Shown piece by piece: positions 7,307-48,968 of a DNA stretch of 64,000 nt (position 1 is its first letter; each line of letters begins with the position of its first letter). The position numbers and the translations under genes were made by a program. The notes beneath the pieces are model-generated. The model saw nothing but the letters and a program-made list of their open reading frames with translations, was not told the origin of the DNA and did not search any database. Origin of the DNA: Roseithermus sacchariphilus (GTDB lineage Bacteria; Bacteroidota; Rhodothermia; Rhodothermales; MEBIC09517); assembly GCA_003285105.1 (NCBI GenBank), contig CP030158.1, positions 3,768,449 through 3,832,448 of the forward strand, given 5' to 3'.

Positions 7307-7372
7307 CAGCCAGGCAACATAGGCGCCTCACCACGGAGGCGCAATTGAAAAGCCCGTGAGAAACGGCGTCCG

Positions 7373-8785: not shown

Positions 8786-8897
8786 GCGGGCAACGTGGAG
8801 TGGAAACGGCGGGTCGCTCGCGGCCGGGCGAGGCGCGTGGCCCCGGTGGCCCGGCGATCATCGTGCCGGAGACGGGATATCGGAAAGAATGCCGCCT

Positions 8898-12260: not shown

Positions 12261-12309
12261 GCCCGCCCGGCCCCACCCCGCTCCATCGCCCCCAGACCCC
12301 TTCCCCGCC

Positions 12310-13575
12310 ATGCTTCGCCGCCTCCTCACGCTGCTGGGACTGATCGGCCTGTGCGCCCTGCCGGTGCGCGGCCAGGACGTGCTCATCCCCATGGATGCCC
12401 GGCAGACCAACCACCTCAAGGCCTACGGCATCGCGTACTGGGTCCTCACGCAGGGAGCCGACGTGGACTGGCTGCTCAACTACCGGGGCGGCAGCTTCCT
12501 CGTGACCGCCTTCCCCGAACTGGAACAGGAACTGCGCATCCGCGGCGTCTACTACGAAACCCTCAACGGCGCACAGACGGCCCAGGTCATCGCCTCGGTC
12601 GAGGCCGAGGACAGCAACACCGCCGTCGTCCGCCTGGAGAAAGCCCCCCGCATCGCCGTCTATGCCCCCGACCAGACCCTGCCCTGGGACGATGCCGTGC
12701 TCCTGGCGCTGACCTACGCCGAGGTGCCCTACGACATGATCTACGACGATGACGTCCTCGACGGCAAGCTGAGCGAGTATGACTGGCTGCACCTGCACCA
12801 CGAGGACTTCACCGGGCAGTACGGCAAGTTCCTCACCTACCGCTCCACCCCCTGGTTCATCGAACAGCAACGACAGGCCGAAGCCTCCGCCCGCAAGTTC
12901 GGCTTCCGCAAGGTAAGCCAGCTGAAGCTGGCCGTCGCCCAGACCATCCGCGAGTACGTCGCCCGTGGCGGCTTCCTCTTCGCCATGTGCTCCGGCACGG
13001 ATACCTTCGACATCGCCCTGGCCGCCGCCAACACCGACATCGTCCCGGCCGACTACGACGGCGACCCGGTCGACCCGGACGCCCTCAACAAGCTCGACTA
13101 CGGGCAGAGCCTGGCCTTCACCGGCTTCCGCCCCAGCTTCAACCCGTACGAATACGAGCACTCGGACATCGACGTCGGCCCCCCGCCGCCGCAGCTCCGC
13201 AACCCGGCCGTCGACTACTTCACCCTGTTCGAGTTCAGCGCGAAGTGGGACCCCGTACCGACCATGCTGACGCAGAACCACGTCGCCACGATCAAGGGCT
13301 TCATCGGGCAGACGACGGCCTTCCGCAAGACGCTGATCAAGGAGAACGTGGTCGTGCTGGCCGAGGCCCCCGGCCGCAGCGAGGTGAAGTACCTGCATGG
13401 CGCCTACGGCGAGGGCACCTTCACCTTTTACGCCGGGCACGACCCGGAAGACTACCAGCACTACGTGGGCGACCCGCCGACCGACCTCAACCTGCACAAG
13501 AACTCGCCCGGCTACCGGCTCATCCTGAACAACATCCTCTTTCCGGCCGCGAAAAAGAAAAAGCAAAAGACGTGA
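12310..13575 (+). CDS. Secreted protein with a glutamine-amidotransferase-like fold (often labelled asparagine synthetase B)
   Basis: 421 residues with a signal peptide ending RGQ. The mature protein begins DVLIPMDARQTNHLKAYG, a hallmark of a Bacteroidota family that databases often call asparagine synthetase B, from recollection. I see neither the Cys2 N-terminal glutaminase nor the ATP-binding SGGxDS loop of true AsnB. The middle (RIAVYAPDQTLPWDDAVLLA to FLFAMCSGTDTFD) has the alternating pattern of a class I GATase/ThuA-like Rossmann fold, with Cys in AMCSGTD at an elbow-like position. The tail is Lys-rich (KKKKQKT). It likely shares a transcript with the TPR gene. Confidence 0.8.
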   Translation: MLRRLLTLLGLIGLCALPVRGQDVLIPMDARQTNHLKAYGIAYWVLTQGADVDWLLNYRGGSFLVTAFPELEQELRIRGVYYETLNGAQTAQVIASVEAEDSNTAVVRLEKAPRIAVYAPDQTLPWDDAVLLALTYAEVPYDMIYDDDVLDGKLSEYDWLHLHHEDFTGQYGKFLTYRSTPWFIEQQRQAEASARKFGFRKVSQLKLAVAQTIREYVARGGFLFAMCSGTDTFDIALAAANTDIVPADYDGDPVDPDALNKLDYGQSLAFTGFRPSFNPYEYEHSDIDVGPPPPQLRNPAVDYFTLFEFSAKWDPVPTMLTQNHVATIKGFIGQTTAFRKTLIKENVVVLAEAPGRSEVKYLHGAYGEGTFTFYAGHDPEDYQHYVGDPPTDLNLHKNSPGYRLILNNILFPAAKKKKQKT

Positions 13576-19166: not shown

Positions 19167-20918
19167 ATGCACGACGGCCACCACCATCACGACCATCCCG
19201 CGCACGAGGCAACCCCGCACGCGTGCGACCACCACGGCGACCACCACGGCGACCACCACGGCGACCACCACGGCGATCCCGACCGTCTGGAACTGGGCCG
19301 CCACGGCGCCCGCCTGGAAGACGGCCTGGACGCCCACGCCCGCGACCATGCCCGCTGGTCCCGCCGCGACTTCCTGCTGCGCATGGGTCTGGCCTCGGCC
19401 GGGGTGGGGTTCCTAATGAACGGCGTGCCCATGCAGGCCTTCGGCCACGCCCCGATCCTGCACGCCCTCAACGAAACCGGCACGGATCGCATCCTCGTGC
19501 TCATCCAGCTCAACGGCGGCAACGACGGCCTCAACACGATCGTCCCCTACGAGAACGACGAGTACTACCGCGTCCGCCCGACGATCGCCATCCCGAAGAG
19601 CGTGGCCATCCGGCTGGACGACGAGCACGGCATGCACCCGGCCATGCAGAGCCTGGCGCGGGTGTGGAACGACGGGGAAATGGCCGTGGTGCTCAACACG
19701 GGCTACCAGAGCTCCTCCCGCTCCCACTTCGCCGGCACGGTCAACTGGGCCACCGGCAGCGGGCGGGTGCCGGGCGGCTCCATGCAGGACTTCTCCACCG
19801 GCGTCTGGGGGCGCTTCCTGTCCCGGGAAGTCGACGCGCAGAAGGGAGCGCTGACCCACCCGCTGGCCGTGCGCATCGGCGGGCCGGTGTCGCTCTTCCA
19901 GAGCGCACGCGGCAACCTGGGCGTCAGCCTGGGCGACTCGCAGTTCATCGAGCAGATCGCCGAGCGCGGCTTCTACGACGCCGACGACGACCGCGTCAAG
20001 GACAAGCCCTTCGGCCGGCCGATGCTGTTCGTCCGCGAGGTCGCCAATGCCTCGCTCAAGTACGTCGCCTCGGTGCAGGAGGCTGCGCAGCGCGGCACCA
20101 ACCAGGTGGCCTACCCCAACACCGGCTTCGCCAGCAACCTGGCCGCCGCAGCCCGGCTGATCCGCGGCGGGCTCGGCTCCAACGTGATCTCCGTCTCCCG
20201 CGGCGGCTTCGACACGCACTCGATGCAGGGCGGCACCGAAGGCAACCACGCCAACATGTGGCGGGACATCAGCGATGCCGTCGCTGCCTTCCTGAACGAC
20301 CTCAAGCAGGACGGCCTGGACCGCCGGGTGCTGGTGATGACCTTCTCGGAGTTCGGCCGTACGCTCCAGGAAAACGGCTCGCGCGGCACGGACCACGGCG
20401 CCGGGGCCTCGATGATGCTCTTCGGCTCCGGCCTCAACGGCGGCGTCTACGGCACCCAGTCGGACCTCGTCACGCAGCTCTACGGCGGCGACCCCGAGCC
20501 GACGACCGACTTCCGCACGCTCTATGCCAGCCTCCTGCAGGACTGGTTCGGCCTTCCGGCCGGCGAGGTGGATGCCCTGCTGGGCGCCTCGTTCCCGCGC
20601 ATGAGCTTCGTCAACAGCCGCATCGGTGTCCACACCGAGGCCCCGCCCCTGCCCTCGGCCTTTGCGCTCGAGCCGAATTACCCGAACCCCTTCAATCCGA
20701 CGACGACCATCCGATACTCTCTGCGTGACGGAGGCCCGGTGAAGCTGGCCGTCTACGACCTGCAGGGCCGCCTGGTCCGCACGCTCGTGGACCGGCCCCA
20801 GGCGCCGGGCACGTACCACGTCACGTTCGACGCCGCCGGCCTGCCCAGCGGAAGGTACCTCTACCGGCTGGACACGCCGGGGGGCTCGGCCTCCCACACC
20901 ATGACACTCGTGAAGTAG
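19167..20918 (+). CDS. DUF1501 protein with His-rich N-terminus, Tat motif and T9SS sorting domain
   Basis: 583 residues. An unusual N-terminus of about 63 residues is rich in His and Asp, with four HHGD units encoded by a 12-bp DNA repeat. A twin-arginine motif follows (SRRDFLLRMG, then AGVGFLMNGVPM). The DUF1501 core shows ILVLIQLNGGNDGLNTIVPY, TMTFSEFGRTLQENGSRGTDHG-type segments (split here: FSEFGRTLQENG, RGTDHGAGASMM) and is related to the alkaline phosphatase/sulfatase fold. The last 85 residues are a T9SS type A sorting domain (NYPNPFNPTTTIRYSL, ending HTMTLVK). Function unknown; partner of the DUF1800 gene. If the Tat start is used, a shorter protein beginning after the His-rich segment is possible. 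Confidence 0.92.
   Translation: MHDGHHHHDHPAHEATPHACDHHGDHHGDHHGDHHGDPDRLELGRHGARLEDGLDAHARDHARWSRRDFLLRMGLASAGVGFLMNGVPMQAFGHAPILHALNETGTDRILVLIQLNGGNDGLNTIVPYENDEYYRVRPTIAIPKSVAIRLDDEHGMHPAMQSLARVWNDGEMAVVLNTGYQSSSRSHFAGTVNWATGSGRVPGGSMQDFSTGVWGRFLSREVDAQKGALTHPLAVRIGGPVSLFQSARGNLGVSLGDSQFIEQIAERGFYDADDDRVKDKPFGRPMLFVREVANASLKYVASVQEAAQRGTNQVAYPNTGFASNLAAAARLIRGGLGSNVISVSRGGFDTHSMQGGTEGNHANMWRDISDAVAAFLNDLKQDGLDRRVLVMTFSEFGRTLQENGSRGTDHGAGASMMLFGSGLNGGVYGTQSDLVTQLYGGDPEPTTDFRTLYASLLQDWFGLPAGEVDALLGASFPRMSFVNSRIGVHTEAPPLPSAFALEPNYPNPFNPTTTIRYSLRDGGPVKLAVYDLQGRLVRTLVDRPQAPGTYHVTFDAAGLPSGRYLYRLDTPGGSASHTMTLVK
19227..19274. repeat. Four 12-bp tandem repeats encoding HHG-D
   Basis: Four perfect copies of GACCACCACGGC inside the DUF1501 gene. 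Being a multiple of three, copy-number change would alter the length of the His/Asp-rich segment without frameshift. Confidence 0.9.
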
Positions 20919-33876: not shown

Positions 33877-34167
33877 CGGCACGAGGTGGGCGATGGTGGC
33901 GCCCCAGCTGCTCGCATCCTCGTACGCCAGATGGTACGATGCCACGAGCGGCAGCCCCTCCAGCACGCGATGCACCCGCCGGCGCAGCACACCGCGCCCC
34001 TTGCCATGGATGATGCGCACCCGCCGTAGCCCCTGTGCGTGGCACGCCCGCACGTATTCGGCCACCAGATCCTCTATCTCCGCCGGATCGAACGCGTGCA
34101 GATCGAGCACACCGTCGAGCGGGTATCGTACCGGCTCCATGCGCGTCGTGCGCCTCCGGCGCGTCAT
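33874..34167 (-). CDS. Smr domain protein
   Basis: 97 residues consisting essentially of one Smr domain: LDLHAFDPAEIEDLVAEYV, then the signature RIIHGKGRGVLRRRV. The domain occurs at the MutS2 C-terminus and in small proteins, and has nicking-nuclease or RNA-cleaving activity in studied members. Its ATG overlaps the stop of the upstream methyltransferase gene by four bases (ATGA), so the two are translationally coupled. Confidence 0.9.
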   Translation of the reverse strand: MTRRRRTTRMEPVRYPLDGVLDLHAFDPAEIEDLVAEYVRACHAQGLRRVRIIHGKGRGVLRRRVHRVLEGLPLVASYHLAYEDASSWGATIAHLVP

Positions 34168-34928
34168 TCTTCCGGGATCGGCTTTTCGAAGACCATGAAG
34201 TGCTGCTGCGGCAGGAAATCCTTCGTCGTCCGCCAGACCAGCCCCACGGCCTCCATCTCACGGCGGGCCTGCGCCACCGTCATCTTGTGCAGCGGCTTGA
34301 TGGGCACGGTCGGATCTTCCCCGCGGTATTCGACGAGGACGACCAGCCCCCCCGGTTTCAGCGCCTCCACGATGCGTGTCATCATCTCGTGCGGAAACGA
34401 AAACTCGTGGTAGGCATCCACCATGAGCGCGACGTCGAGCGAGGCCCGGGGCAGATTCGGATCCGTCTCCGTACCGCGAACGGGGACGATGTTGGTCAGG
34501 CCGCGCTCGGCGATGCGCTCCCGGATGATGTCCAGCATTTCGTCCTGGATGTCGACGGCATAGACCAGGCCATGGGGCACCCGCTCGGCGATGCGGAAGG
34601 TGAAGTAGCCGGTGCCGGCCCCGATGTCCGCCACGACGTCGGCCGGAGACAGGGCCAGCGCCCGCACGACGCGGTCGGGGAATTCCTCGGTTTCGCGGGA
34701 GGGGCGTTCCAGCCAGGACACCCCCCGGTGCCCCATCACCTGAGCGATCTCACGGCCCATGTAATACTTCCCCGTGCCATCCTCGCTGCGGGAACCGAAG
34801 GTATAGACCCCGGCCGGCGTCGTGGGCGCGTCCGCCGGGCGGCAGGCCGGGCCGGCCGGCGCCGTCAGCAGCACCAGCAGGAGCCCCCGGACAAGCCATC
34901 CGTTTCCTATCCACCTGGGTCTCTGCAT
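34164..34928 (-). CDS. Exported class I SAM-dependent methyltransferase-like protein
   Basis: 254 residues. The N-terminus has a signal (WLVRGLLLVLLTAP) followed by a Cys in GPAC; this is not a canonical lipobox, but a lipoprotein or secreted form is likely. Residues about 85-200 form the methyltransferase Rossmann fold with motif I VADIGAGTGYFTF, motif II VYAVDIQDEM and VALMVDAYHEF. A similar exported family is found in Bacteroidota. Where SAM would come from outside the cytoplasm is unclear. It is coupled to the Smr gene by a 4-bp overlap. Confidence 0.85.
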   Translation of the reverse strand: MQRPRWIGNGWLVRGLLLVLLTAPAGPACRPADAPTTPAGVYTFGSRSEDGTGKYYMGREIAQVMGHRGVSWLERPSRETEEFPDRVVRALALSPADVVADIGAGTGYFTFRIAERVPHGLVYAVDIQDEMLDIIRERIAERGLTNIVPVRGTETDPNLPRASLDVALMVDAYHEFSFPHEMMTRIVEALKPGGLVVLVEYRGEDPTVPIKPLHKMTVAQARREMEAVGLVWRTTKDFLPQQHFMVFEKPIPEE

Positions 34929-35203: not shown

Positions 35204-37384
35204 ATGAAGCATCTGCTCTCCCTTCTGCTCCTGACGGCCCTCCTCTGCGGATCGGCTTTTTCCCAGGGAGCCTCGTTCGAGGAGGCCGTCGTGGACGTGG
35301 GCAACATCGGCCTGACGATCACGAACGCGGGGTTCATCGGGAGAGCAAACGTGCGCAACAACCCGACGGGGCCACCGTCGATGGAATACCCGCTCGACTC
35401 GGGCGTGGAGCATCTGTTCGAGTCCGGCCTCTGGGTGGGCGCGCGCCGCAGCGACGGGGTGACGACCGTCCGCACCGGCGCCGTCACGGCCGCCGGCGGC
35501 TACCGACCCGGGGCCACGGGCTACGAGTTCGCCCAGACGGCGCCCATCCTGGAGCGCTCCTCCCTCCCCACCTCCGCCGTCTTCACCCGCAGCGCCGTCA
35601 GCCATCAGGACTACCTGACCGCTTTCGTCGACACGGCCACCGTGCTGCCGGGCACCTCCATCCAGATGCCCGACCCACAGGGTCGCCTCGGGATGGCCGT
35701 CGAACTCGAAACGTTCGCCTGGAATTTCCCCTTCACCGAGTACTTCGTCATCCTCAACTGGAAGATCGTCAACATCAGCGAGGCCGCCTGGGAGGACGTG
35801 TACGTGGGCATGTACCACGACCTGGTGGTGCGCAATGTGAACACGACGACGGACGCCGGGGGGGCCTTCTTCAACAAGGGAGGGCTCGGCTTCCTGGACA
35901 GCCTGTATGCCTCGTATGCCTTCAATGCAGGCGGCACCGAGGAAACCCTCAACACGTACGGCGCGATGGCCTTCCTCGGCGCCGAGTGGGAGGACCCGGC
36001 CACGGGCCGAACCCGTTTCTTTCACCCCAACGTAGCAGCCACCTACGAGGCCGAAGGATTGCCCCGTCCTCAGGTGAACCCCCGCTGGTGGCTCTTCTCC
36101 GGCGGGACCGACGAACTCGGGCGTCCCTCCACGGACGAGGAACGTTACCGTCGCATGGCCACGCCCTACCCCAACCCGGCCTCGTTCGAGAACCCAGCCG
36201 ACTTCGAAGCGGCCCGTGCAGCCTGGTTCGAACGCCTGCGTACCGACGGACAGAATTCGGCCGGCAACTGGATCGGCCTGACGCCCGTTGGTCCCGTGCC
36301 GCGCGTCGAGCCCGGCGACACGCTCACGGTCACCTTTGCCGTCGTCGCCGCCCTCAAGCCGGAGGCGTTCCAGGGGCAGGCGGGCAAGCCCATCGACACG
36401 CCCGAGAGCCGCGGCCTGCTGGAAAACAACGTGCGCTGGGCGCAACGTACCTATGCCGGGGAAGACAACAACTTCAACGGCGAACTCGACCCCGGCGAGG
36501 ACGTCAACGGCAACGGGGTGCTGGATCGCTACCTCATCCCCGAGCCACCCTCTTCCCCGAACGTCCGTGTCGTTTTTGAGGATGCCATCGATCCCCAGAC
36601 GGGGCAGCAGGACACGAAGGCGATCCTTTACTGGGACCGGGCTGCCGAGTTCTCGAGGGACCCCGTCACCGGCACGCTGGACTTCGAAGGCTACCGCATC
36701 TACCGGAGCAACCCCGGCGACGACCGCACCGGCAACATCCTCGACCGCGCCACGCTCATCGCCCAGTACGACCGGCCCGGCAACCGCACCGGGTTCAACA
36801 ACGGCTTCGCCGAGATCGCGCTGAACGAACCCGTCACCTTCCCCGGTGACTCGACTGAGTACTGGTACCGATTCGAGGCGGACGACCTCCTCCCCGGATG
36901 GCAATACCTCTTCATCGTCACCGCCTTTGACGAGGGTGACCCCGACGCCGGCCTCCCGTCCTTCGAGTCGTCCCGGACGGCCACGGCCACCCGCGTCTTC
37001 CCGGGGACCCCGCCCGACGACGACGGCGACCGCCGCGTAGGCGTCTATCCCAACCCGTACCGCGTCAGCGCCGCCTGGGACGGGGGCACCAACCGCACCC
37101 GTCGGCTCAACTTCTACAACCTCCCGCCCCGGGCCGAGATACGCATCTACTCGCTCGCCGGCGAAATCGTCAAAACGCTGTACCACGAGGCGGACACGTA
37201 CCGCGGCGACATCCGGTGGTACGACAATTTCAGCGCCGAAAACCGGATCCTTCCCGGTGGGGAGCACGCCTGGGACATCCTCTCCGAAAACGGCCTCAAC
37301 CTGGCCTCCGGACTCTACCTGTTCACCGTCAAGAACCTGGACACCGGCGACACCCAGCAGGGTAAGTTTGCCATCATCAAGTAA
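35204..37384 (+). CDS. Large secreted surface protein with Ca-binding-like loops
   Basis: 726 residues with a signal peptide (KHLLSLLLLTALLCGSAFSQ). No catalytic family is recognised. Around residues 420-440 two EF-hand-like loops stand in tandem, DNNFNGELD and DVNGNGVLD. A fibronectin-III-like segment follows (LYWDRAAEF to YLFIVTAFDEG). The end (VGVYPNPYR, RIYSLAGEIVKTL, LASGLYLFTVK, QQGKFAIIK) is a FlgD-like/T9SS-type sorting domain. It is first in a seven-gene run with a 50-bp gap to the next gene. A surface or secreted location is likely; function inferred only from the neighbours. Confidence 0.85.
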   Translation: MKHLLSLLLLTALLCGSAFSQGASFEEAVVDVGNIGLTITNAGFIGRANVRNNPTGPPSMEYPLDSGVEHLFESGLWVGARRSDGVTTVRTGAVTAAGGYRPGATGYEFAQTAPILERSSLPTSAVFTRSAVSHQDYLTAFVDTATVLPGTSIQMPDPQGRLGMAVELETFAWNFPFTEYFVILNWKIVNISEAAWEDVYVGMYHDLVVRNVNTTTDAGGAFFNKGGLGFLDSLYASYAFNAGGTEETLNTYGAMAFLGAEWEDPATGRTRFFHPNVAATYEAEGLPRPQVNPRWWLFSGGTDELGRPSTDEERYRRMATPYPNPASFENPADFEAARAAWFERLRTDGQNSAGNWIGLTPVGPVPRVEPGDTLTVTFAVVAALKPEAFQGQAGKPIDTPESRGLLENNVRWAQRTYAGEDNNFNGELDPGEDVNGNGVLDRYLIPEPPSSPNVRVVFEDAIDPQTGQQDTKAILYWDRAAEFSRDPVTGTLDFEGYRIYRSNPGDDRTGNILDRATLIAQYDRPGNRTGFNNGFAEIALNEPVTFPGDSTEYWYRFEADDLLPGWQYLFIVTAFDEGDPDAGLPSFESSRTATATRVFPGTPPDDDGDRRVGVYPNPYRVSAAWDGGTNRTRRLNFYNLPPRAEIRIYSLAGEIVKTLYHEADTYRGDIRWYDNFSAENRILPGGEHAWDILSENGLNLASGLYLFTVKNLDTGDTQQGKFAIIK

Positions 37385-37434
37385 GCCCTCGGGGGACTTC
37401 ATGCCCCCTTTCCCTCACCAACACGGAGTGAACC

Positions 37435-39618
37435 ATGAGACGAACCCTTACCACCCTTTTCGTCCTGCTCCTGCTGCTGGCCCCGGCGGCCAGCGCCCAG
37501 GACGCCGTGGACGTGACCGTGCGCGAGATCAACGCGATCCCGGAGGCCAACATCAATGCCGTGATCGCGCTGGGCACCGCCCTCACGGGAGACGACATCA
37601 CCGCCAACATCCGCTCGCCCTATGCCGGCCAGAAGGTGCGCTTCACGGCCGTGGTGCTGGCCGAGCCGAACAAGTCTGGCCTCTCGAGCATCAGCAGCGA
37701 CGGCGTCAACCCCAGCCGTGTCCACTATTTCGTCCGTGATACCTCGGCCGCCTCGATGGGACCCGCCGGCATGGACATCCAGATCGTGGACGGAGACTAC
37801 CAGACCACGGGCTCTCTCAGTCTATTCAAAGGAGACGTCGTGACCATCACGGGCGACGTCACCTACTTCGGCACGGGCCTGCAGATCACGCCGGAGACGA
37901 TTGAATTGCGAGGCGTTTACACCGACCTCGGACTGCCTGCGGATCTCATTGACCCGGTGCCGGTCACGGTCGACCAGATCAACCAGAACCTCGGATCGGG
38001 TGGAGATTTTCAGATCCAGGCCAACTGGGCCAACTTCAGCAGCCTGCACCAGCAGTACGTTCGCATCGAGAATGCGGTGGTCTGGCGCTCGCCCAACCGC
38101 ACGGACGACCGTCCCAACTGGGCCGTCATCCAGAACAACGTCCTGCTCCAGAATGACGACATGTCGATCCGCTACCGGAACGACCGGGCCAACTACCCGG
38201 ACACGTTCGACAAGCGGGAGACGCCGTTCGAGGCCCCGCCGCAGGGCGCGACGGTGACGGTACAGGGCTTTGCGCTCCTGCGCAGCGGCTTTGATATAGG
38301 AGGTGATGCTGACGGCACCATCGGGGCGCCGTCAATTGGGATGCTCAAAATCGTGCCCTGGGAGGACGAAGACCTCGTCATCACGGCCGCGCCGAAGGTG
38401 GTCATCGAGAGCGTCGCCGGACCGGACACCGTGCCGGGCGAAGGCCCCATCCCGGTGACCGTCACCTTCAGCGGCGACCCGGCCAATATCACCTCCGTCA
38501 ATCTGATCTACGAAACCTCGGCGGGCGGCGGAGCACAGAGCGTCGCCATGAGCAGCACGGACGGCGGGAACGCCTACACCGGCGAGATCCCGACGCAGCC
38601 CGATGGGACGTTCGTCACCTATTACGTCGAGGCATCGGATGCGGATGGGGTCGTCTATGCTTCCGAGCCCATGCAGATGACGCGCGTCCTCTACGACGGC
38701 ATCGACGAGATCGCCGACATCCAGGAAACCATCGACGGTGGCCCCGGTGACAGCCCCTTCGCCGGCCTGACGACCGACATGGACCTGACCGTGACCGTCC
38801 AGAGCTCCCCGGGCACCTCCGGCATCGTGGCCGTCCAGGACGACGCAGCCCTGGGACCGTGGTCGGGCATCCTCATCACCGGTGAGGGCACGGCCACGCT
38901 GAACCCGGGCGACGTCATCCGCATCACGAGCGGCACGGTCGCCGAGAACTTCGGGGTGACCGAGATCCAGGACGTGACGTTCGAGACGGTGTCCACGGGA
39001 GGCGCACCGCTCGGCTACAAGACCGTCACGACCGACGTGCTGCAGGATGCCGACATTGCCGAAGCGCACGAGGGCATGCTCCTGCGGTTCGAGGACGTGC
39101 TCATCACCTCGATCGAGAGCTTTGGCGAGTGGACGTTCTCGTCGGACGGCACCGAGGAGAACGCCGTCTTCGCCGACGACGCCTCCAGCGCCATCCCGAG
39201 CAACTTCAACGCGACGGCCATCGCCGTGGGTGAGGTGCGGGACTTCATCCAGGGCATCTGGTGGTACTCCTTCGGCGCCTACAAGCTCGTCCCCGAGACG
39301 ACGGCCGACGTCGGCGTGGTGACGAACGTGAGCGTGGACGAGAACGAGGTGCCCGCCCACTTCGCGCTGAAGCAGAACTACCCCAACCCCTTCAATCCGG
39401 TCACGACCATCGAGTACAGCATCCCGGCCGTGGAGCAGGTGAAGCTGAGCGTGTTCGACGTCCTGGGCCGCGAGGTCGCCGTCCTGGTCGACGGCAGCCA
39501 GACGCCGGGGGCCTACACGGTCACCTTCGACGCCTCCTCCCTGCCGAGCGGGCTGTACCTCTACCGCCTCGAAGCCGGCGGCCAGAGCATCGTCCGCTCG
39601 ATGATGTTGCTGAAGTGA
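37435..39618 (+). CDS. Secreted OB-fold-like protein with T9SS sorting domain
   Basis: 727 residues with signal peptide ending ASAQ and a good GGAG ribosome site. Residues about 65-165 (KVRFTAVVLAEPNKSGL, then GDVVTITGDVTYFGTGLQI) and about 455-570 (LTVTVQSSPG, NPGDVIRITSGTVAENFGVT, EGMLLRFEDVLITS) look like OB folds of the type found in extracellular nucleases (YhcR/NucH-like). An Ig-like segment separates them. The last 85 residues are a T9SS type A domain (NYPNPFNPVTTIEYSI, ending RSMMLLK). No nuclease active site is visible in this protein; it may bind nucleic acid or another polyanion at the surface. Confidence 0.85.
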   Translation: MRRTLTTLFVLLLLLAPAASAQDAVDVTVREINAIPEANINAVIALGTALTGDDITANIRSPYAGQKVRFTAVVLAEPNKSGLSSISSDGVNPSRVHYFVRDTSAASMGPAGMDIQIVDGDYQTTGSLSLFKGDVVTITGDVTYFGTGLQITPETIELRGVYTDLGLPADLIDPVPVTVDQINQNLGSGGDFQIQANWANFSSLHQQYVRIENAVVWRSPNRTDDRPNWAVIQNNVLLQNDDMSIRYRNDRANYPDTFDKRETPFEAPPQGATVTVQGFALLRSGFDIGGDADGTIGAPSIGMLKIVPWEDEDLVITAAPKVVIESVAGPDTVPGEGPIPVTVTFSGDPANITSVNLIYETSAGGGAQSVAMSSTDGGNAYTGEIPTQPDGTFVTYYVEASDADGVVYASEPMQMTRVLYDGIDEIADIQETIDGGPGDSPFAGLTTDMDLTVTVQSSPGTSGIVAVQDDAALGPWSGILITGEGTATLNPGDVIRITSGTVAENFGVTEIQDVTFETVSTGGAPLGYKTVTTDVLQDADIAEAHEGMLLRFEDVLITSIESFGEWTFSSDGTEENAVFADDASSAIPSNFNATAIAVGEVRDFIQGIWWYSFGAYKLVPETTADVGVVTNVSVDENEVPAHFALKQNYPNPFNPVTTIEYSIPAVEQVKLSVFDVLGREVAVLVDGSQTPGAYTVTFDASSLPSGLYLYRLEAGGQSIVRSMMLLK

Positions 39619-39702
39619 TCCGGTGATTCGTCCTACGGGATGCCGCGGGTGGGGCGTGCTCGTTCCGGGCCGCCCCACCCCGCATCACGTAACTCCATTC
39701 CC

Positions 39703-41334
39703 ATGCACCGTCTTTCCCCCTTCTTGCTCCGGCTTGCCGGTATGGCCGGGCTGAGCCTCGTCGTGCTCTGGGCCGGATGCGATGCCGCCATCACCGGCAC
39801 CCCGTTCGAGAACCGGCCTCCCGACACGGCCCTGAGCGTGCGGGATTCGTCGCTCGTGGATAACCTCGCCGACGCGAATCGCCTGACGAGCACCGTATAC
39901 ATTTCCTGGACGGGTACCGACCCGGACGGGTTCGTGGCCTCCTACGAACTTCGTTATTACCCTTCGGACGAGCGCCCCGCCCCCGACGAGGGCTGGTCCG
40001 CCACGACGCGCACGGACTCGCTCGTGCTGTTGCCCATCCCCCGTGGCGAGCGCACCGCCGACGTCACGTTCGAGGTGCGTGCCATCGACAACGAGGGCGC
40101 CCGTGACCCGGACCCCGCCCGCACCGTCTTTCCCATACAAAATGCGCCGCCCACCCTCTCGCTGAATCCCTTCGATCTGCCGCCGGACACCACCTTCACC
40201 GTGGTCTCCTTCGCCTGGACGGCCCGCGACCCCGAAGGTCCGGACAACCTGGACCGCATCGAAATCAGCCTCAACGACAGCACGTCGTTCGTGGCCCTCT
40301 CCGCTGACGTCGACTTCATCACGCTCATCGGCGACGTCGACCGCAACGACCCGAGCCAGACCGAGGCGACGGCACGTATCTTCGCCGGACGCGCCTTCCA
40401 GTCCACGGGCCTGACCGTGCCCGGCCTGCGCCTCGACGCCGACAACACGTTCTACGTGCGGGTCGTGGATCAGACCGACACAACGAGCACGCTACAACGC
40501 GTGACCTGGTACGTCAAGAAGCCCACGAGCGAGGTGCTCTATGTGAACGACTACCGCAAGGCGACGGCCCCCACGGTGCAGGCGTATCACCTGGCCCTCC
40601 TGCGGGACTACCTCCCCGCCGGCATGAGCATCGACACGTGGGACCTCTCGCAGCCGTATGCCACCGGCTCCTCCGGCAACACGCCCCGCTCGGATGCCCT
40701 CCCGGGCGAGGCCGAGCCGACGCTCCGTGAAACGCTCCTGCTCTTCAAGTACATCTACTGGGTGACGACCAACGCCACGAACCGCATCCAGGGCAACAAC
40801 CTGCCGCTGGCCGCCACCGTCATGGACGCGTTCTTCGAAAACGGCGGCAAGCTGATGGTCCACACGCCGATCACGTTGCCCACCAACCCCGAGGATAACC
40901 TGGGCAACCCGGCCATCCTGCTACTGCCGCTCAACGACCTGACGGCCCTGCCCGACTCCATCGGGCGCCTCGAACTCGGTGTCGGCGCCGCCATCGATCC
41001 GATCGAGCCCGTACCGGGACCGGATGTGACGCTGCCGCCGCTCGTCTCGCAGCGGTTCTTCATCAACGAACTGCCATTCGACGCCGAGAGTGCCAACATC
41101 ATCCCGCTCTATGAGGGAGCATACCGGTACCGCACCCAGCGCGGTAGCCGCGGCGAGTGGCCCGGCCCCAGCACCGTGGCGTCGATCAGCGCCGACCGCC
41201 GGGTGGGCCTCTTCGCCCTGCCCATGGTCAACGAGCAGACGGGTGAGCCGCTGCTCTTGAGCACGGACGGGGACCCCGAGGCTCCACGACGGGCCATTCA
41301 TCTGATCCTGGAGAGCCTCGGCTTCCCCCGCTGA
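39703..41334 (+). CDS. Lipoprotein with Fn3-like domains
   Basis: 543 residues with lipobox LWAGC. Two fibronectin-III/Ig-like domains occupy about residues 40-250 (VYISWTGTDPDGFVASYELR, FAWTARDPEGPDNLDRIEI). The second half starts SEVLYVNDYRKA and has a Rossmann-like alternation with MDAFFENGGKLMVHTP, similar to GATase/ThuA-like domains. No catalytic residues are recognised. It lies 14 bp before the TonB-dependent receptor gene, so it may be an accessory surface lipoprotein, in the position a SusD-like protein would take, though it is not SusD. Confidence 0.8.
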   Translation: MHRLSPFLLRLAGMAGLSLVVLWAGCDAAITGTPFENRPPDTALSVRDSSLVDNLADANRLTSTVYISWTGTDPDGFVASYELRYYPSDERPAPDEGWSATTRTDSLVLLPIPRGERTADVTFEVRAIDNEGARDPDPARTVFPIQNAPPTLSLNPFDLPPDTTFTVVSFAWTARDPEGPDNLDRIEISLNDSTSFVALSADVDFITLIGDVDRNDPSQTEATARIFAGRAFQSTGLTVPGLRLDADNTFYVRVVDQTDTTSTLQRVTWYVKKPTSEVLYVNDYRKATAPTVQAYHLALLRDYLPAGMSIDTWDLSQPYATGSSGNTPRSDALPGEAEPTLRETLLLFKYIYWVTTNATNRIQGNNLPLAATVMDAFFENGGKLMVHTPITLPTNPEDNLGNPAILLLPLNDLTALPDSIGRLELGVGAAIDPIEPVPGPDVTLPPLVSQRFFINELPFDAESANIIPLYEGAYRYRTQRGSRGEWPGPSTVASISADRRVGLFALPMVNEQTGEPLLLSTDGDPEAPRRAIHLILESLGFPR

Positions 41335-41348
41335 GCCCGGATGCCGCG

Positions 41349-44270
41349 ATGCGTACGATCCACTACGTTTCCATGCGCCTGTTTGCCTTTCTCCTCCTGA
41401 CCTGCGTTTGCGTGGGATCGGTCCTCGGCCAGGGCCGCATCGCCGGTACCGTGCGTGACGCCACGACGGGCGAGCCGCTCATCGGGGTCAACGTGATCGT
41501 CGTCGGCACCTCCAATGGCGCCGCCACCGACCTCGACGGCCGCTACGTCATCGAAAACCTCCGCCCCGGCGAGTACGCCGTCCGGGTTTCCTACATCAGT
41601 TTCGAGACGAAACTGTTCACCGGCATCACCGTCCGGGACGGCGAAACGACCCGGCTCGACGTGGAGCTGCAAGAGGCGGTGTTGTCTACCGACGAGGAAA
41701 TCGTCATCGTCGGTGAAAAGCCTCTGCTGGACGTGGAACAATCCTCCAGCGCCTACACCATCGGCAGGGAGCAACTGGAAAGCGCCCCCTTGCGCAACGT
41801 GCAGGAGGTCGTAGCTACCCAGGTCGGCGTCGTCCGCGATCCGACGGGCCTCTACATCCGCGGGGGGCGTGCCAACGAGACCGGCTTCATCGTCGACGGC
41901 GTATCGGCCAAGGACCCCCTGGCCGGCACCGGCTTCGGTCTCGACATGGGATCGAATGCCTTCTCCGAAGTGGAAGTGACCACGGGCGGCCTCGGCGCCG
42001 AAGTGGGCGATGCCACCAGCGGCGTCGTTTCCGTCGAGACGCAAACCGGCGGCGACACCTTCGCGGGCTTCTTTTCCCACAAGCGCGACCACCTCGGCTT
42101 CAACGAAGACGCCGCCTCCACATTCAACGAAGAGATCTATGAACTCAACCTGGGCGGCCCGATCATCCGCGGCAAACTGCGCTTTTTCCTCTCCGGCCAG
42201 GTTCAGCTGTCGGACGGTTTCACGCGGCAGGTGGCCACGCCGGAGCAGGTGCGTTCCTCGCTGATCGGCACCGACTTTTTCTCCCCCCGCACGGGCAACC
42301 GCTGGAATGGCCTGACCAAGCTCACCTATGACCTCCGGCCCGGCATGCGGGTGCAGGCCTCCTACCAGCGCTCGCTGACCATCAACCAGAACACCCGCAT
42401 GCTTCAGGTGACCGGCAACGAAGCCGTCATCCAGCCGGGCTTCCAGTATGCCTTCATCCTGCAACCGGACAACGCCAACACGTACGCGCACGACAACATC
42501 ATCAGCTATCTGAAGTGGTCGCACGTGCTCAACGAACGCTCGTTCTACGACGTGCAGGTGAGTCGCCTCTTTACGAAGCTGCGGGCCGATGCCAACGGAC
42601 GCCCCTGGCGCCCCCGGAACGTGGACACCGAACTCGACCCGGAGAGCATCGTCACCTACCCGGCCAACCTCTTCGTCGACGAGAACGGCAACCCGACCGA
42701 CCCGAATGCGCTGTTCGTGCTCCCCGGTCCCGGCCTGATCAACAACGGCGGCATCGCCACGCGCTTCCACGACCACTTCGCCGAAGAGATCACGCTGCGC
42801 GCCTCCTACACGCGGTTCTCGGCGGACAAGAACAACCGCCTCAACGTCGGCTTCGAGGCCAAGTTCAATGACTACCAGTGGATCGACATCATTCGCCCCT
42901 GGGTGGGAGCCCCGATTGGTGGTGAAGAGGGCACGAGCACGGGCCGCCTCGGCGAGAGTTCGGACATCTGGCGCGTCAAGCCCCGGCGCGGCGCGGTCTT
43001 CGGCACCTATCAGATCCGATACCGCGGCCTGATCGCCAACCTGGGCACCCGCCTGGAGTACTGGGCCCCCGGCCGCTACGTCGACCGCCTCGTCGACGAC
43101 CCGCTGGCGCCCATCCTCGACGGCGTCCGTGACTCGTACCGGGACAACACCGTCAAACTGTTCGGCCTGCGCTACAAGCTGCGCCTCTTGCCCCGCCTGC
43201 GCGTCTCCTTCCCCATCCAGGAAAACCGCGTCCTCTTCTTCAACTACGGCCACGCGACCCAGCTACCCCATCCGACGTTCGTCTACACCGGCCTCGATCC
43301 GTTCTTCCAGGACCGCTCCTTCTTCGCCGACCTGGGCAACCCCGACCTCAACCCCGAGGTCGACATCTCCTACGAGCTGGGCCTGCGCAACCAGTTCTCG
43401 ACCAACGACGTGCTCAACGTCACGTTCTTCTGGCGGGACAAGTTCGACTTCATCACCGTCGAGAACGTGGTCGTGAAGGACCCGACCGGCCGCGATGTGA
43501 CGCGGGCCTTCCGCGTCAACGGCGACTTCGCGCGGGTGCGCGGGGTGGAGGTGAGCTACCTCAAACGCATCGGCGACTGGTTCCTGGGGCAACTCTCGGG
43601 GTCGTTCTCCCGCGCCACAGGCCTCAGCTCGACCAACAACGATGCGCTGCAGGACTTCCTGGCCAACGGTGACATCGAGAACACCTTCGAAACGCCGCTG
43701 GCCTGGGACCGCCCGCTCGACCTGAAGGCCAGCGTCACCTTCACGCACGACCGCGCCCAGCCCTGGCTGGGCCTGCCGGGCCTGAACCGCTTCCGGCTAT
43801 ACGTGTCCTCCACCTTCCGCAGCGGGCAGCGCTACACGCCGGCCGTGTTCCGGGGGCGCGAGGTCAACCCCTTCACCGGCGAGGCCGACTGGCGTCCGAT
43901 CTACGAGATCGAGACCGATCCCCGTGCCCGCTTCTCAGAGATCGGCGAACCCTGGTGGTGGTTCGACCTGAACCTCCAGCGCTCGGTCGCCTTCGCCGGC
44001 ACCGACCTGGTCTTTTCGATCGAGGTGACGAACCTGTTCAACCAGAAGAACAGCGTCATCGTCAACCCCGTCACCGGGAAGGCGTACCCGGACGTCGACC
44101 CCGAGACGACCGATTTCACGCAGCTGCGGGACAACCCCGACTTCGACGTGACCACCGGCACGCGCGACCCGCGCTATGAGGACCCGGAGACGAGCGGCCT
44201 GCCGCCGTTCAACCCGGCCCGCTTCCTGCCCCAGCGCCACATCATGGTCGGGGTGTCGTTCCGGTTCTGA
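41349..44270 (+). CDS. TonB-dependent outer-membrane receptor
   Basis: 973 residues. A signal peptide (ending SVLGQ) is followed by a carboxypeptidase-like regulatory domain (GRIAGTVRDATTGEPLIGVN, residues about 30-115), a plug domain (VQEVVATQVGVVRDPTGLYI, RGGRANETGFIVDGV) and a 22-strand barrel ending in HIMVGVSFRF with a terminal Phe. Such receptors import large or scarce substrates using TonB/ExbBD energy. No SusD partner is adjacent; a lipoprotein precedes and a PorV-like protein follows. The substrate is unknown; nucleic-acid products are inferred from the locus. Confidence 0.94.
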   Translation: MRTIHYVSMRLFAFLLLTCVCVGSVLGQGRIAGTVRDATTGEPLIGVNVIVVGTSNGAATDLDGRYVIENLRPGEYAVRVSYISFETKLFTGITVRDGETTRLDVELQEAVLSTDEEIVIVGEKPLLDVEQSSSAYTIGREQLESAPLRNVQEVVATQVGVVRDPTGLYIRGGRANETGFIVDGVSAKDPLAGTGFGLDMGSNAFSEVEVTTGGLGAEVGDATSGVVSVETQTGGDTFAGFFSHKRDHLGFNEDAASTFNEEIYELNLGGPIIRGKLRFFLSGQVQLSDGFTRQVATPEQVRSSLIGTDFFSPRTGNRWNGLTKLTYDLRPGMRVQASYQRSLTINQNTRMLQVTGNEAVIQPGFQYAFILQPDNANTYAHDNIISYLKWSHVLNERSFYDVQVSRLFTKLRADANGRPWRPRNVDTELDPESIVTYPANLFVDENGNPTDPNALFVLPGPGLINNGGIATRFHDHFAEEITLRASYTRFSADKNNRLNVGFEAKFNDYQWIDIIRPWVGAPIGGEEGTSTGRLGESSDIWRVKPRRGAVFGTYQIRYRGLIANLGTRLEYWAPGRYVDRLVDDPLAPILDGVRDSYRDNTVKLFGLRYKLRLLPRLRVSFPIQENRVLFFNYGHATQLPHPTFVYTGLDPFFQDRSFFADLGNPDLNPEVDISYELGLRNQFSTNDVLNVTFFWRDKFDFITVENVVVKDPTGRDVTRAFRVNGDFARVRGVEVSYLKRIGDWFLGQLSGSFSRATGLSSTNNDALQDFLANGDIENTFETPLAWDRPLDLKASVTFTHDRAQPWLGLPGLNRFRLYVSSTFRSGQRYTPAVFRGREVNPFTGEADWRPIYEIETDPRARFSEIGEPWWWFDLNLQRSVAFAGTDLVFSIEVTNLFNQKNSVIVNPVTGKAYPDVDPETTDFTQLRDNPDFDVTTGTRDPRYEDPETSGLPPFNPARFLPQRHIMVGVSFRF

Positions 44271-44289
44271 GCCTGATGAAAACAATCTG

Positions 44290-45360
44290 ATGCATCCGTT
44301 CCACCCCATACGACGGGCACCGCGGCAGCGTGGCGAGATACCGGTCCGCCGGCACCATACGCTCCTGCTGGTGCTGTGGCTGGGTGCCCTGTGGCTGCCG
44401 GCGTCCGCCCCGGCCCAGGTGCTGCCCTCCTTTGGCGGCGACCGGGCGGGGACGTCCGGCTTCCAGTTCCTCAAGATCGCTTCCGACGCGCGCGGCGCGG
44501 CCCTGGGCGAGACGGTCGTGGCCGCGGCCTTCGACGCCAGCGCCCTGTTCTGGAACCCGGCGCTGGCCGCCCAGCTCGACGGCCTCCACGCCGGCCTGCA
44601 CCACACCGCCTACTTCGTCGACGTATCGCTCGATCTGCTGGCCGTGACGTACCACCTTCCGGGTCCCGGCCTGACCCTGGGCGCCAGCCTCCAGACCCTC
44701 GACTCGGGGAAGATGGACGTGACGACCGAGTTCGAACCCTTTGGTACCGGCGAACAGTTTCGCCTGATTGACATGGCCACCGGCCTGACGCTGGCCCAGC
44801 GCCTGACCGACCTGTTCAGCTATGGCGTCACGGGCAAGTACGTGCGCGAGAGCGTCGCGGGCCTGACCACGTCGACCCTGGTGTTTGACCTTGGCATCTT
44901 CTATCGCATCGGCGACACAGGGGCTCAGATGGCCGTCGCCATTCGCAACTTCGGTTTCGATGCCCGCCCGGAAGGCTCACTTCGTCGACCCGTCATCAAC
45001 CAACCCCCTGAGGCCGTCGAAACCGAGTTCGAAGCCATGACTCCACCCACGACGTTCCTCTTCGGCCTTACCTACGACGTCTTGCACGACGATGCGCGGA
45101 ATGACTTGCTCGTCTCGTTGCAACTGAATAACCCGAACGACAACGCGGAAAACTGGAACGTGGGGGTCGAATACGTGTGGCAGCAGCGTCTGGCGATGCG
45201 AACCGGCTACCGGTTCGGCGTGGAGGAATACACGATGCCCGGTCTCGGACTGGGACTCTACCTCCCTCTGCCCGGGCCCGACCTGCGCTTCGATTATGGC
45301 TTCAACCGCCTCGACCGCCTCGGTGCCATCCACCGCATCGGCCTCAACCTGAGTCTCTGA
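44290..45360 (+). CDS. PorV/PorQ family outer-membrane protein
   Basis: 356 residues with a signal peptide ending APAQ. The mature start GTSGFQFLKIASDARGAALG followed by ALFWNPALAAQ is the hallmark of the PorV/PorQ (UPF0164) FadL-like family. PorV shuttles T9SS cargo from the translocon to the attachment complex; family members outside the main T9SS set may serve particular cargo. The ATG giving MHPFHPIRR was chosen over an out-of-character upstream extension. It is 19 bp after the TonB receptor gene and next to T9SS-tailed proteins, which fits the role. Confidence 0.87.
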   Translation: MHPFHPIRRAPRQRGEIPVRRHHTLLLVLWLGALWLPASAPAQVLPSFGGDRAGTSGFQFLKIASDARGAALGETVVAAAFDASALFWNPALAAQLDGLHAGLHHTAYFVDVSLDLLAVTYHLPGPGLTLGASLQTLDSGKMDVTTEFEPFGTGEQFRLIDMATGLTLAQRLTDLFSYGVTGKYVRESVAGLTTSTLVFDLGIFYRIGDTGAQMAVAIRNFGFDARPEGSLRRPVINQPPEAVETEFEAMTPPTTFLFGLTYDVLHDDARNDLLVSLQLNNPNDNAENWNVGVEYVWQQRLAMRTGYRFGVEEYTMPGLGLGLYLPLPGPDLRFDYGFNRLDRLGAIHRIGLNLSL

Positions 45361-45383
45361 CCGGTGCCCTCCGGTATGTACCT

Positions 45384-46664
45384 ATGATGTTGTCTCCTCC
45401 CCGACTTACGGCCGTTGTCCTCCTGGTCGCTGCGTTGCTTGGCACAGGTTGCGACGACCTCCTCGGCACGAAATCAGACGAGACGAGCCGCGAGATCTTC
45501 GAGGCCGGACGGGCCGACCCGGATGTCCTCAAGGAGGTCGAATACGTACCGCTGTTTCCCTTCTTTACGCAGGGCGGTGACGGAACCACGCTACAGGCTC
45601 CCACCGATGTCTATGCCGGCTATGATGAACTGCTCTACATCACCGATGCACGGGGCCTGCACGTGCTCGACCGTGCCGGCCGACCTGCCACGTTCCTCCC
45701 CATCGATGGCGGCGCCACGTCCGTCACGCAGGATCGACGCTTCCACGTCTATGTCACGGCCCGGCGTGACACCACGCTCAACGGCCGCACCTGGAACCTC
45801 CCCGTCATCCTCCACTACGACGGCCTCACCACGGGCTCGCCCCGCCTCGTCGACATCATCTGGCATCCCTTCGACGATGACTCTCGCCGCTTCAACCGGC
45901 CCGATCCCATCGAAACGGATGAGCAGGTCGAGTTCACCGGCGTGGGCGTTCTGGCAAACAACCACATCCTGGTGACCCGGCGCGGTCCCGTAAACGATGT
46001 TACGTCGGTCATCCTCCCCCACAACACCGTGCTCGAGTTCTCCCCCGCCGGGGTCAACGTGCAGACCATCGTGGCGCTGAGCCCGACGGTACCGAGCCTG
46101 CGGAGCGCCGTCAACCCTACCGACATCATCACGTTCGTCCAACCCCCGCAACGTGCATTCTACCCGCTGGAGAAGAACTTCATCCTGGCCCAATCCCCCT
46201 ATCCAAACGGCGAACCCACATCGGGCACCCGGGACAGCCTCCGCTTTGCTGTCCTTTCGATTCAGGCCGTCGAAACACCGGACGGCATCGAATACCGGCC
46301 CGACACGGAGAAGCTCCAGGTGGCGGCCAACCCGGACCGGGGTGACCGTTTTCTCTACGACGAATTCCGGTTCGAGAATCCGACCGACCTGATGTTTGCA
46401 GCCGATGGAACGAACTACCTGTTCGTGACGGATGCAGGCAAAGACAGCCTGTTCGTCTTCACCGCCCAGGGCATCGAAGGGGTGGCGCCCCCACCGGGGG
46501 CTACCTCTACACGCCCGGTCGTGGTCTCCTTCGGCGGTACCGGAGCAGGCGCCCTGCAGTTCAACAACCCCCAGGGCGTTGCCTACTTCCAGCGCATCGT
46601 CTACGTCGCCGATACCGGCAACAACCGGATCTCGCGCTTCCGGCTCAACACCGACTTCGAATAA
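45384..46664 (+). CDS. NHL/beta-propeller-like lipoprotein
   Basis: 426 residues with lipobox LGTGC in a short signal. The C-terminal part has NHL-type features, such as FENPTDLMFAADGTNYLFVTDAG and FNNPQGVAYFQRIVYVADTGNNRISRF, suggesting a beta propeller; the middle part has weaker repeats (DVYAGYDELLYITDARGLHV). No enzyme motif. Two adjacent ATGs mark the start; the first is used. It lies between the PorV-like gene and the nuclease gene, so it is probably a surface lipoprotein of the same system. Confidence 0.8.
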   Translation: MMLSPPRLTAVVLLVAALLGTGCDDLLGTKSDETSREIFEAGRADPDVLKEVEYVPLFPFFTQGGDGTTLQAPTDVYAGYDELLYITDARGLHVLDRAGRPATFLPIDGGATSVTQDRRFHVYVTARRDTTLNGRTWNLPVILHYDGLTTGSPRLVDIIWHPFDDDSRRFNRPDPIETDEQVEFTGVGVLANNHILVTRRGPVNDVTSVILPHNTVLEFSPAGVNVQTIVALSPTVPSLRSAVNPTDIITFVQPPQRAFYPLEKNFILAQSPYPNGEPTSGTRDSLRFAVLSIQAVETPDGIEYRPDTEKLQVAANPDRGDRFLYDEFRFENPTDLMFAADGTNYLFVTDAGKDSLFVFTAQGIEGVAPPPGATSTRPVVVSFGGTGAGALQFNNPQGVAYFQRIVYVADTGNNRISRFRLNTDFE

Positions 46665-46711
46665 CATCCCCGCCGTTGGCTTCCTTCTCCGCACTCCCCA
46701 CCCCCCACCCC

Positions 46712-47899
46712 GTGCCTCGCTGCTGCGCGCTCCTGCTGGCCGGGCTGCTGATCTCGTCCGCCGCAGCCCAGACCGTGCCCACCCTGGGCACCGAGCATAC
46801 CCTGGACGTCGCCACCTGGAACATCGAATGGTTCGGGGACCCGTCCAACGGCCCAGATGACGATGCACAGCAGTTCGAGCGCGTCAAAGCCGTGATCCAG
46901 CAGTCCGGCATCGACCTGTGGGCCGTGCAGGAAATCGCCGACGCGGACGACTTCGATCGGCTGCTCGATGAACTGGGCAGCGACTTTGCCGGCGTCCTGG
47001 CGACCAACAGCGGCCAGCAACGCATCGGGTTCATCTACGACACCCGCACCGTCCAGCTCAACGGATCGCCCCAGCACATCCTGGAATCCTTCGACTACGA
47101 CTTCGCCGGCCGCCCGCCCCTGCAGATCAGCACGCGGATCACCCTGCCGGATACGACCGTCACGGTGCTCTTCATCACGGTGCACATGAAGGCATTCTCG
47201 GACCGCACCTCCTACGAACGCCGGCAGAGTGCCTCGTCTCGACTGAAAAACCGCCTGGACTTCCTCCACCCGGCAGACCGGGTCGTGGTCCTGGGTGATT
47301 TCAACGACGAACTCGGACGCTCGACCTACCTCGGGCTCCCCTCGCCCTACCAGAACTTCCTCGACGACCCCGACGACTACTACTTCGCCAGCCTCCCGCT
47401 GGACGCGCAGGATCTGGGCACTTACTGCTCCTCCGACGCCTGTTCCGGAAGCACGCTGGACCACATCCTGATCACGGATGAGATGCTCCCCCCCCTGGTA
47501 GATGGCGCCGCTGACCGCTTCCTCGCCCTCACCTCGGTGTTCTCAGCCTATAGCTCGACGACGTCCGATCATCTGCCGGTGTACGCACGCTTCGATTTCA
47601 CCCGCGCCACGTCGGTCACCCCGCCGGCCGTCGTTTCGGCCTCGCCCACTCTGACGGCCTATCCCAATCCGTTCACCGACGTTCTCACCCTCCGCTATCA
47701 CCTCGATCGCCCCGAGGCGGGGCGCGTCGCGATCTACGACCTGCTGGGCCGTACCGTCTGGCAGGATGCGTTCGCAGTAGATCCGGAACCGACCCGGACC
47801 GTGACGATCCCCACCGGCACCTGGGCACCGGGCGTCTACGTGGTGCGGGTCACGTCCGGCACGGACGTGCACAGCCGGCTCGTCACCCGGGTCCGCTGA
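46712..47899 (+). CDS. Secreted endonuclease/exonuclease/phosphatase family protein with T9SS-like tail
   Basis: 395 residues from GTG (a TTG 36 bp upstream is an alternative). A signal peptide ends SAAAQ. The EEP fold retains all catalytic motifs: VATWNIEWFG (Asn37), LWAVQEIADADD (Glu74), ITVHMKAF (His158), VVVLGDFNDELG (Asp196, Asn198), LDHIL, and TSDHLPV (Asp286, His287). The NIEWFG form is common in secreted nucleases of the NucH/ExeM type. Residues about 320-395 form a T9SS-like sorting domain (TAYPNPFTDVLTLRYHL). It is predicted to cut DNA/RNA or phosphoesters at the cell surface. It is last in the seven-gene run. Confidence 0.9.
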   Translation: MPRCCALLLAGLLISSAAAQTVPTLGTEHTLDVATWNIEWFGDPSNGPDDDAQQFERVKAVIQQSGIDLWAVQEIADADDFDRLLDELGSDFAGVLATNSGQQRIGFIYDTRTVQLNGSPQHILESFDYDFAGRPPLQISTRITLPDTTVTVLFITVHMKAFSDRTSYERRQSASSRLKNRLDFLHPADRVVVLGDFNDELGRSTYLGLPSPYQNFLDDPDDYYFASLPLDAQDLGTYCSSDACSGSTLDHILITDEMLPPLVDGAADRFLALTSVFSAYSSTTSDHLPVYARFDFTRATSVTPPAVVSASPTLTAYPNPFTDVLTLRYHLDRPEAGRVAIYDLLGRTVWQDAFAVDPEPTRTVTIPTGTWAPGVYVVRVTSGTDVHSRLVTRVR

Positions 47900-48231: not shown

Positions 48232-48744
48232 TCAGTCCGTCAGGTTGAAATAGGCACGGACGGCTTCGTAATCCGAGAAGTCGACAGCCGCCTTCGCCGC
48301 CGGGAAGCCATCGATGATGACGGCTTTGATCTCCCGATCCGGCTGATTCTCCAGGGGGATGTCCGCCGTCGAAGCCTCGTAGAACACCTCCAGGAAGCGG
48401 TCGTCGTAGCCATAGCCCAGGGTGATGGTATAATCGACGGCCGGGAGGTCCGGCGACTCATCGGCGAAGGTGTAGGGCATGGCCGTCCAGGTCCCCTGTT
48501 CGCGGAAGTAGAGCAACACGGCGCCGTCGTCCACCACCGACGGCGTGATCGCCGGCACCTCGTACCCGACCGAGGCCACGGGTCCGCTGATGGTGGCGTC
48601 ATCCATCGTGAAGAGGAAGGTCAGCGAAAAGACGTTGGCATTTCCGGGAGGGCCGGGAGGACCTACGGGGCCTTCGGCGCAGGCCGAAAGGAGAAGCATC
48701 GCGCCGAGCAGCGCCGGGAGCATGGGGCGAACGAAGCGGGTCAT
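48232..48744 (-). CDS. Lipoprotein with short collagen-like segment
   Basis: 170 residues. The lipobox LSAC is followed by AEGPVGPPGPPGNANVF, a short Gly-x-Pro collagen-like stretch, then a beta-rich domain (LTFLFTMDDATISG, AVDYTITLGYGYDDRFLEVF) and a C-terminal DFSDYEAVRAYFNLTD. The pattern is common among Bacteroidota lipoproteins with unknown function. The ATG giving MTRFVRPM was chosen because the signal starts there. Confidence 0.8.
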   Translation of the reverse strand: MTRFVRPMLPALLGAMLLLSACAEGPVGPPGPPGNANVFSLTFLFTMDDATISGPVASVGYEVPAITPSVVDDGAVLLYFREQGTWTAMPYTFADESPDLPAVDYTITLGYGYDDRFLEVFYEASTADIPLENQPDREIKAVIIDGFPAAKAAVDFSDYEAVRAYFNLTD

Positions 48745-48968
48745 GGGAACCACCGGTTGAGAACGAGGACACGACGGACTCACGACTTCAGCGCCGCGAG
48801 GTGTCTTCCGACGAGCATCCACGGCCGGGCATGGCAAACCTCAGGCCGGAACGGCACTCCTCCGCAGGAGCCGCCCGACGGGCCTGATGACGCCGATGAA
48901 GGGCCCACCTACTGTCTACCCGGTTGGACGGCCTGCCGTCTACCGTCCGCAATCAGAGATTGCCCCGT

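Follow-up and report, generated by a model that had tools for sequence, protein, structure and literature searches.

The window analysed here is a 64-kb stretch of DNA from a single-contig genome of 4.81 Mb, in which seven open reading frames, all on the forward strand, fill positions 35204–47899 (Table 1). When the likely starts are used the gaps between consecutive genes, from g1 to g7, are 50, 84, 14, 19, 23 and 11 bp, and the run is bordered on both sides by reverse-strand genes, one divergent and upstream (34164–34928) and one convergent and downstream (48232–48837). Terminator-like sites were not in excess of the number expected from shuffled sequence (10 found, 8.2 expected), and those on the forward strand within the operon all fell inside genes. 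This agrees with the preliminary description of the locus as seven same-strand genes with short gaps and no terminator between them, and its list of domains for the seven proteins also agreed with our profile searches, the tail of g1 being the one addition. Elsewhere in the window a DUF1501 protein (19167–20918) that ends in a T9SS tail of type A is another predicted surface or secreted protein.

Table 1. Genes of the operon and their predicted features (window coordinates).
Gene	Position	Strand	Predicted features
g1	35204..37384	+	Secreted protein; signal peptide; N domain resembling a beta-supersandwich; FN3 region; divergent T9SS tail of type A (~610-726); accompanies the receptor throughout
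g2	37435..39618	+	T9SS type A cargo; Ig domain 321-420; ExeM/NucH/DUF5689-type OB region 428-635; possible first OB 107-174
g3	39703..41334	+	Surface lipoprotein; FN3-like repeats; C-terminal region without fold match; specific to this operon type
g4	41349..44270	+	TonB-dependent receptor: CarboxypepD_reg, plug, beta barrel
g5	44290..45360	+	PorV/PorQ-family outer-membrane barrel; paralogue of a stand-alone PorV-like protein encoded elsewhere in the genome
g6	45384..46664	+	NHL-propeller lipoprotein (NHL repeats)
g7	46676..47899	+	EEP-family nuclease-like enzyme, T9SS type A tail; occupies the variable last slot

Domain content of the seven proteins

T9SS tails had been assigned at the outset to g2 and g7 and both were confirmed, with 45.7 bits for g2 against TIGR04183 and 39.8 bits for the type A tail of g7 (cut-off 23), while the divergent tail of g1 had been missed. 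The g1 protein gave no match to TIGR04183 or PF18962 when searched to an E value of 0.1, and so did not reach the type A cut-off model, but profile-profile comparison identified its tail as homologous to that of g2 (hhalign, 96.7%, E 4e-10) and the PorZ model also matched it (E 3.5e-5). The structure model of g1 (pLDDT 86) contained a beta-supersandwich-like N domain, an FN3 region and the tail, with PorZ among its structural matches. Weak structural matches of the N domain to YidC and to the N domains of sugar phosphorylases were also observed, and the g1 sequence had no significant match in the PDB.

The g5 protein was assigned to the PorV/PorQ family by NCBIfam PorV_fam (NF033709; 174 bits, cut-off 90), and with 71 of 250 bits for the PorV equivalog and 90 of 220 bits for the PorQ equivalog it is neither of these proper. 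For g3 a domain search returned a weak FN3 match, and FN3-like matches were the only ones found in the PDB. The two predicted lipoproteins, g3 and g6, held up, as the lipobox cysteine of each was invariant among homologues.

Two OB-fold regions had been proposed for g2. The C-terminal one was supported by a profile search of the PDB, in which residues 428–623 matched the N-terminal portion of an EEP-domain protein of solved structure (9sf8/9sf9, E 4e-11), and by the AlphaFold model (pLDDT 88.8), where the structure-prediction check suggested for this gene located an OB fold at residues 528–631 that superposes on an OB domain of Teb1 (Z 9.8, 3.1 Å, 93 residues). The N-terminal one, at about residues 107–174, was weakly indicated (E ~0.7). 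The g2 profile also matched the Ig domain of peptidylarginine deiminase (PPAD), to which residues ~321–420 of the model aligned with Z 12.3; whole-chain Foldseek matches were dominated by multi-Ig proteins and were rejected as a guide to the fold. Against the full ExeM/NucH model g2 scored 32.6 of 300 bits, over the OB part only, and with no nuclease domain it is not a member of that family; its orthologues scored up to 56 bits (L063). DUF5689 (PF18942) was not found in the window's g2 and scored above its cut-off in one orthologue (L050, 38.2 bits), and residues 447–629 of g2 aligned with a flavobacteria-like DUF5689 protein (hhalign, 87.5%, E 3.6e-6). The protein is strongly acidic, with a net charge of -60 and of -5 to -15 in the OB parts, which is unusual for an electrostatic DNA binder. 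One nearly doubled g2 (1318 aa, L045:4953-8906) gave two profile matches, which suggests an internal OB/Ig duplication.

The last protein, g7, falls within the EEP superfamily (PF03372, 46.4 bits, cut-off 24.5), and residues N49, E86, D208 and N210 together with the SDH motif at 297–299 were invariant in nine homologues, consistent with the EEP protein with complete catalytic motifs and T9SS-like tail first described. A search of the PDB matched the tail alone and found no solved relative of the catalytic domain.

Conservation of the six-gene order and its last slot

Of 198 genomes searched across the phylum, 60 contained a relative of g3, and these represent 41 of 102 genera. Among 42 neighbourhoods read with profiles derived from the window together with its relatives, the order g1-g2-g3-g4-g5-g6 was complete in 33 other loci, down to 23–40% identity, a count that includes two loci whose genes are split between frames (L040 and L047); beyond these, several loci were cut by contig ends and one was without g2. 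Besides the window's order, the six-gene loci were found in two more families of its class and in about ten families elsewhere in the phylum, so that the neighbourhood survey proposed earlier found the order of g1 to g6 kept. The g2 protein is among the fastest changing (to 25% identity) and g4 and g1 are the slowest. Within the class the operon occurs as one copy and shows strong conservation, although in some bacteria of the window's order and class it is missing or cannot be recognised, and no competence or phosphate gene common to the operon flanks was found among the annotated neighbours.

Of the two loci with split genes, L040 (a Rhodothermus MAG) has both g2 and g3 in two frames (6952-10838) and L047 has g2 alone (10498-12684), from either sequencing error in drafts or real decay. 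A second cassette was seen in L069, L072, L073 and L076, where a contig end cuts it in the last; it comprises a g2-like tail protein, a small gene, a distant g3-like gene, a receptor, one or two short tandem g1 copies and a PorV-family barrel.

The seven-gene unit originally proposed was not upheld, because the EEP gene is a lineage-specific addition to a core of six genes. An EEP enzyme follows g6 in the window's order and in L066, and in L039 it sits upstream of g1; EEP was rejected as a core part since it is missing or replaced outside the window's order. The last slot is taken in L060, L068 and L075 by a PLD-type enzyme that carries a T9SS tail and gives NucT-like matches; in L078 such an enzyme lies one gene farther on. 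In six members of family f11 the slot holds lipoproteins of the PF01663 phosphodiesterase/nucleotide pyrophosphatase type, two called by Pfam and four by 53–76% identity to those two. These last-slot enzymes mostly begin within 42 bp of g6. In many six-gene operons, chiefly those outside the class, the slot lacks an enzyme and ordinary unrelated genes stand there. The varied phosphodiester-bond enzyme families in one slot are the best evidence on the class of substrate.

The receptor, g1 and PorV-family trio

There are 13 PorV-family matches in the window's genome, eleven of which, g5 included, adjoin a TonB receptor and a g1-family protein; of the two left over, one is the best PorV match, which stands alone. 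The best PorV candidate and SprA are both encoded away from the operon. Two adjacent weak PorV-family matches (L088) were also seen in this genome outside any trio. Distance matrices for the trios of this one genome were strongly correlated for g1/g4 (r 0.87), g1/g5 (0.84) and g4/g5 (0.90), as well as for the g1 tail and g5 (0.80), with Mantel p values of 5e-5 for the whole partners and of 5e-5 to 1e-4 over all these pairs. Since these are paralogues of a single genome, shared speciation cannot produce the correlation, and the trio therefore duplicates and evolves as a unit. Of the 198 genomes, 114 encode proteins of the g1 family (76 of 102 genera). When 20 loci from 20 other genomes were selected on g1 alone, both a receptor and a barrel of the PorV family adjoined g1 in all 20, and most of these loci also had T9SS-tailed cargo next to them.

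A PorV paralogue paired with its own cargo had been suggested, and these data (r 0.84–0.90; 20 of 20 loci) support it as a barrel that travels with its CTD protein. The lipoprotein expected to be the receptor's standard partner did not prove to be so, because the protein that adjoins the receptors throughout is g1, which has a CTD but no lipobox. Given that g1 carries a divergent type-A tail, g5 may serve as an anchor dedicated to it, in the way that PorQ does for PorZ, and the simplest reading of our analysis is that g5 would be the dedicated barrel of g1, placing it over g4.

The ten further trios of the genome (L082-L087, L089-L092) mostly stand beside T9SS-tailed cargo (GHL10 hydrolases, an Amidase_2 enzyme, CBM_4_9 proteins), the cargo types, which differ from those of the window's operon, being glycoside hydrolase-like, amidase, carbohydrate-binding and FG-GAP, and these trios are likely uptake systems for other substrates. 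A literature search, mostly outside subscription papers, found no description of the receptor/g1/PorV trio, so that a surface module coupling a TonB importer to a PorV-like anchor of its own, in about eleven copies per genome, is apparently undescribed. It is built from known parts, and it is the more surprising part of the finding.

Relation to known systems and proposed function

PorV binds type A tails in the SprA translocon (PMC10994853), and PorZ retains its tail and binds PorQ, cognate PorV-like barrels having been suggested to protect tails from cleavage (PMC10202324). For type B tails the barrels are dedicated ones of the PorP/SprF kind; type A tails, by contrast, are all said to rely on one PorV (PMC12618676). 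The trio resembles the PorQ-PorZ and PorV-PorU pairs of the T9SS attachment complex in joining a PorV-family barrel to a CTD protein, but it is tied to a TonB receptor, occurs about eleven times per genome and has other N-terminal domains. Like the type B CTD/PorP-SprF shuttle pairs it encodes a CTD protein next to its own barrel, although here the tail is type-A-like and the barrel of the PorV/PorQ family. With SusCD (RagAB) the operon shares a TonB receptor with CarboxypepD_reg, a surface partner and secreted enzymes; it differs in that the partner is T9SS-tailed and no SusD was found among the seven proteins (SusD is present elsewhere in the genome), and with g4 far under the cut-off of the SusC model TIGR04056 (64 of 368 bits) it is not a SusCD system. 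An OB region combined with an EEP enzyme recalls the ExeM/NucH extracellular nucleases, except that the two lie here on separate proteins, g2 and g7.

We propose, with moderate confidence, that the operon builds a TonB-energised surface complex which binds and cuts extracellular nucleic acid and imports the products, or DNA, through g4. Gene order, domains, conservation, the co-evolution of g1, g4 and g5 and the identity of the last-slot enzymes are the observations from which we infer the physical complex, the retention of the tail, the substrate and the import. The OB cargo g2 and the last-slot enzyme (g7 here) would be exported by the T9SS and would then bind or cut the substrate. Exported by the same route, g1 would stay docked in the g5 barrel by its divergent tail, and g5 would hold it over the receptor much as PorQ does with PorZ. 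The surface lipoproteins g3 and g6 would belong to the same complex, and the cut products, or DNA itself, would pass through g4. Extracellular nucleic acid as the substrate is supported by the ExeM/NucH-type OB region of g2 and by the unrelated nuclease and phosphodiesterase families in the last slot. The surface machine for extracellular nucleic acid first put forward thus gains support from the OB region, the last-slot enzymes and the conserved order, as a putative function.

The live rival to nutrition is natural transformation, because two neighbouring genes of Riemerella anatipestifer, one for an outer-membrane protein with CarboxypepD_reg and one for a DUF5689 protein (RA0C_RS04915-RS04920), are essential for it (PMC8459023) and TonB mutants are impaired in it (PMC8383284). 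The operon would then be an outer-membrane DNA-uptake apparatus in which g2 binds double-stranded DNA, g4 and TonB pass it and ComEC takes over. The alignment of g2 with DUF5689 favours this, as do 13–14 flavobacteria-like genomes of the phylum, equated with Riemerella by domains and adjacency rather than by Riemerella sequences, in which the receptor/DUF5689 pair stands beside a divergently transcribed EEP gene, so that the parts list (receptor, OB protein, EEP) matches that of the window. However, no g1, PorV-family barrel or g3/g6-type lipoprotein was seen at that pair, which is a separate arrangement with receptors distant in sequence, and direct orthology of g4 with the flavobacterial transformation receptor was not supported, since other receptors in those genomes score higher; with the best matches of g4 lying elsewhere, the pair is a functional lead for the operon and not a membership. 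ComEC and DprA are present in the window's genome, but this says little because most control genomes encode them too, competence genes were not seen adjoining the operon, and secreted nucleases with a nucleotide phosphodiesterase suit feeding at least equally. Overall we regard transformation as unlikely, though as a serious alternative. In the flavobacteria-like loci themselves (L115-L132) the DUF5689 gene follows the CarboxypepD_reg receptor, and in most of them a divergent PF19580 EEP gene lies across the receptor from it; this gene may be a third, so far overlooked component of the transformation locus.

A general envelope or T9SS housekeeping complex, serving for example in cargo attachment and with the nucleases as incidental cargo, would account for the single copy and strong conservation in the class and for the PorV-family barrel and PorZ-like tail, but the patchy occurrence within the same order and class, the convergence of the last-slot enzymes on phosphodiester chemistry and the location of SprA and the best PorV candidate elsewhere make it improbable. 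The system might also import another ligand, such as phospholipid head groups or teichoic-acid-like or sugar-phosphate polymers: the EEP, PLD and NPP families all have members that act on lipids or other phosphodiesters, NPP-type enzymes can also cleave non-nucleotide phosphodiesters, and g1 has a sugar-enzyme-like beta-supersandwich. The OB/ExeM-NucH region and the NucT-type PLD matches favour nucleic acid, and we consider such ligands very unlikely.

On the reading that we prefer, a surface complex for extracellular nucleic acid, a broader view can be offered tentatively: members of the phylum outside the classic Bacteroidia may carry many receptor complexes in which a T9SS-secreted partner with its own PorV-family barrel replaces SusD, the window's being a conserved one for DNA/RNA capture and maybe an outer-membrane DNA importer. 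A trio present about eleven times in a genome, in which the PorV-family barrel evolves in step with a TonB receptor and a protein with a type-A-like tail, would revise the one-PorV view (PMC12618676), and it would give a second design for SusCD-type uptake. The operon names candidate genes for how DNA crosses the outer membrane in these bacteria.
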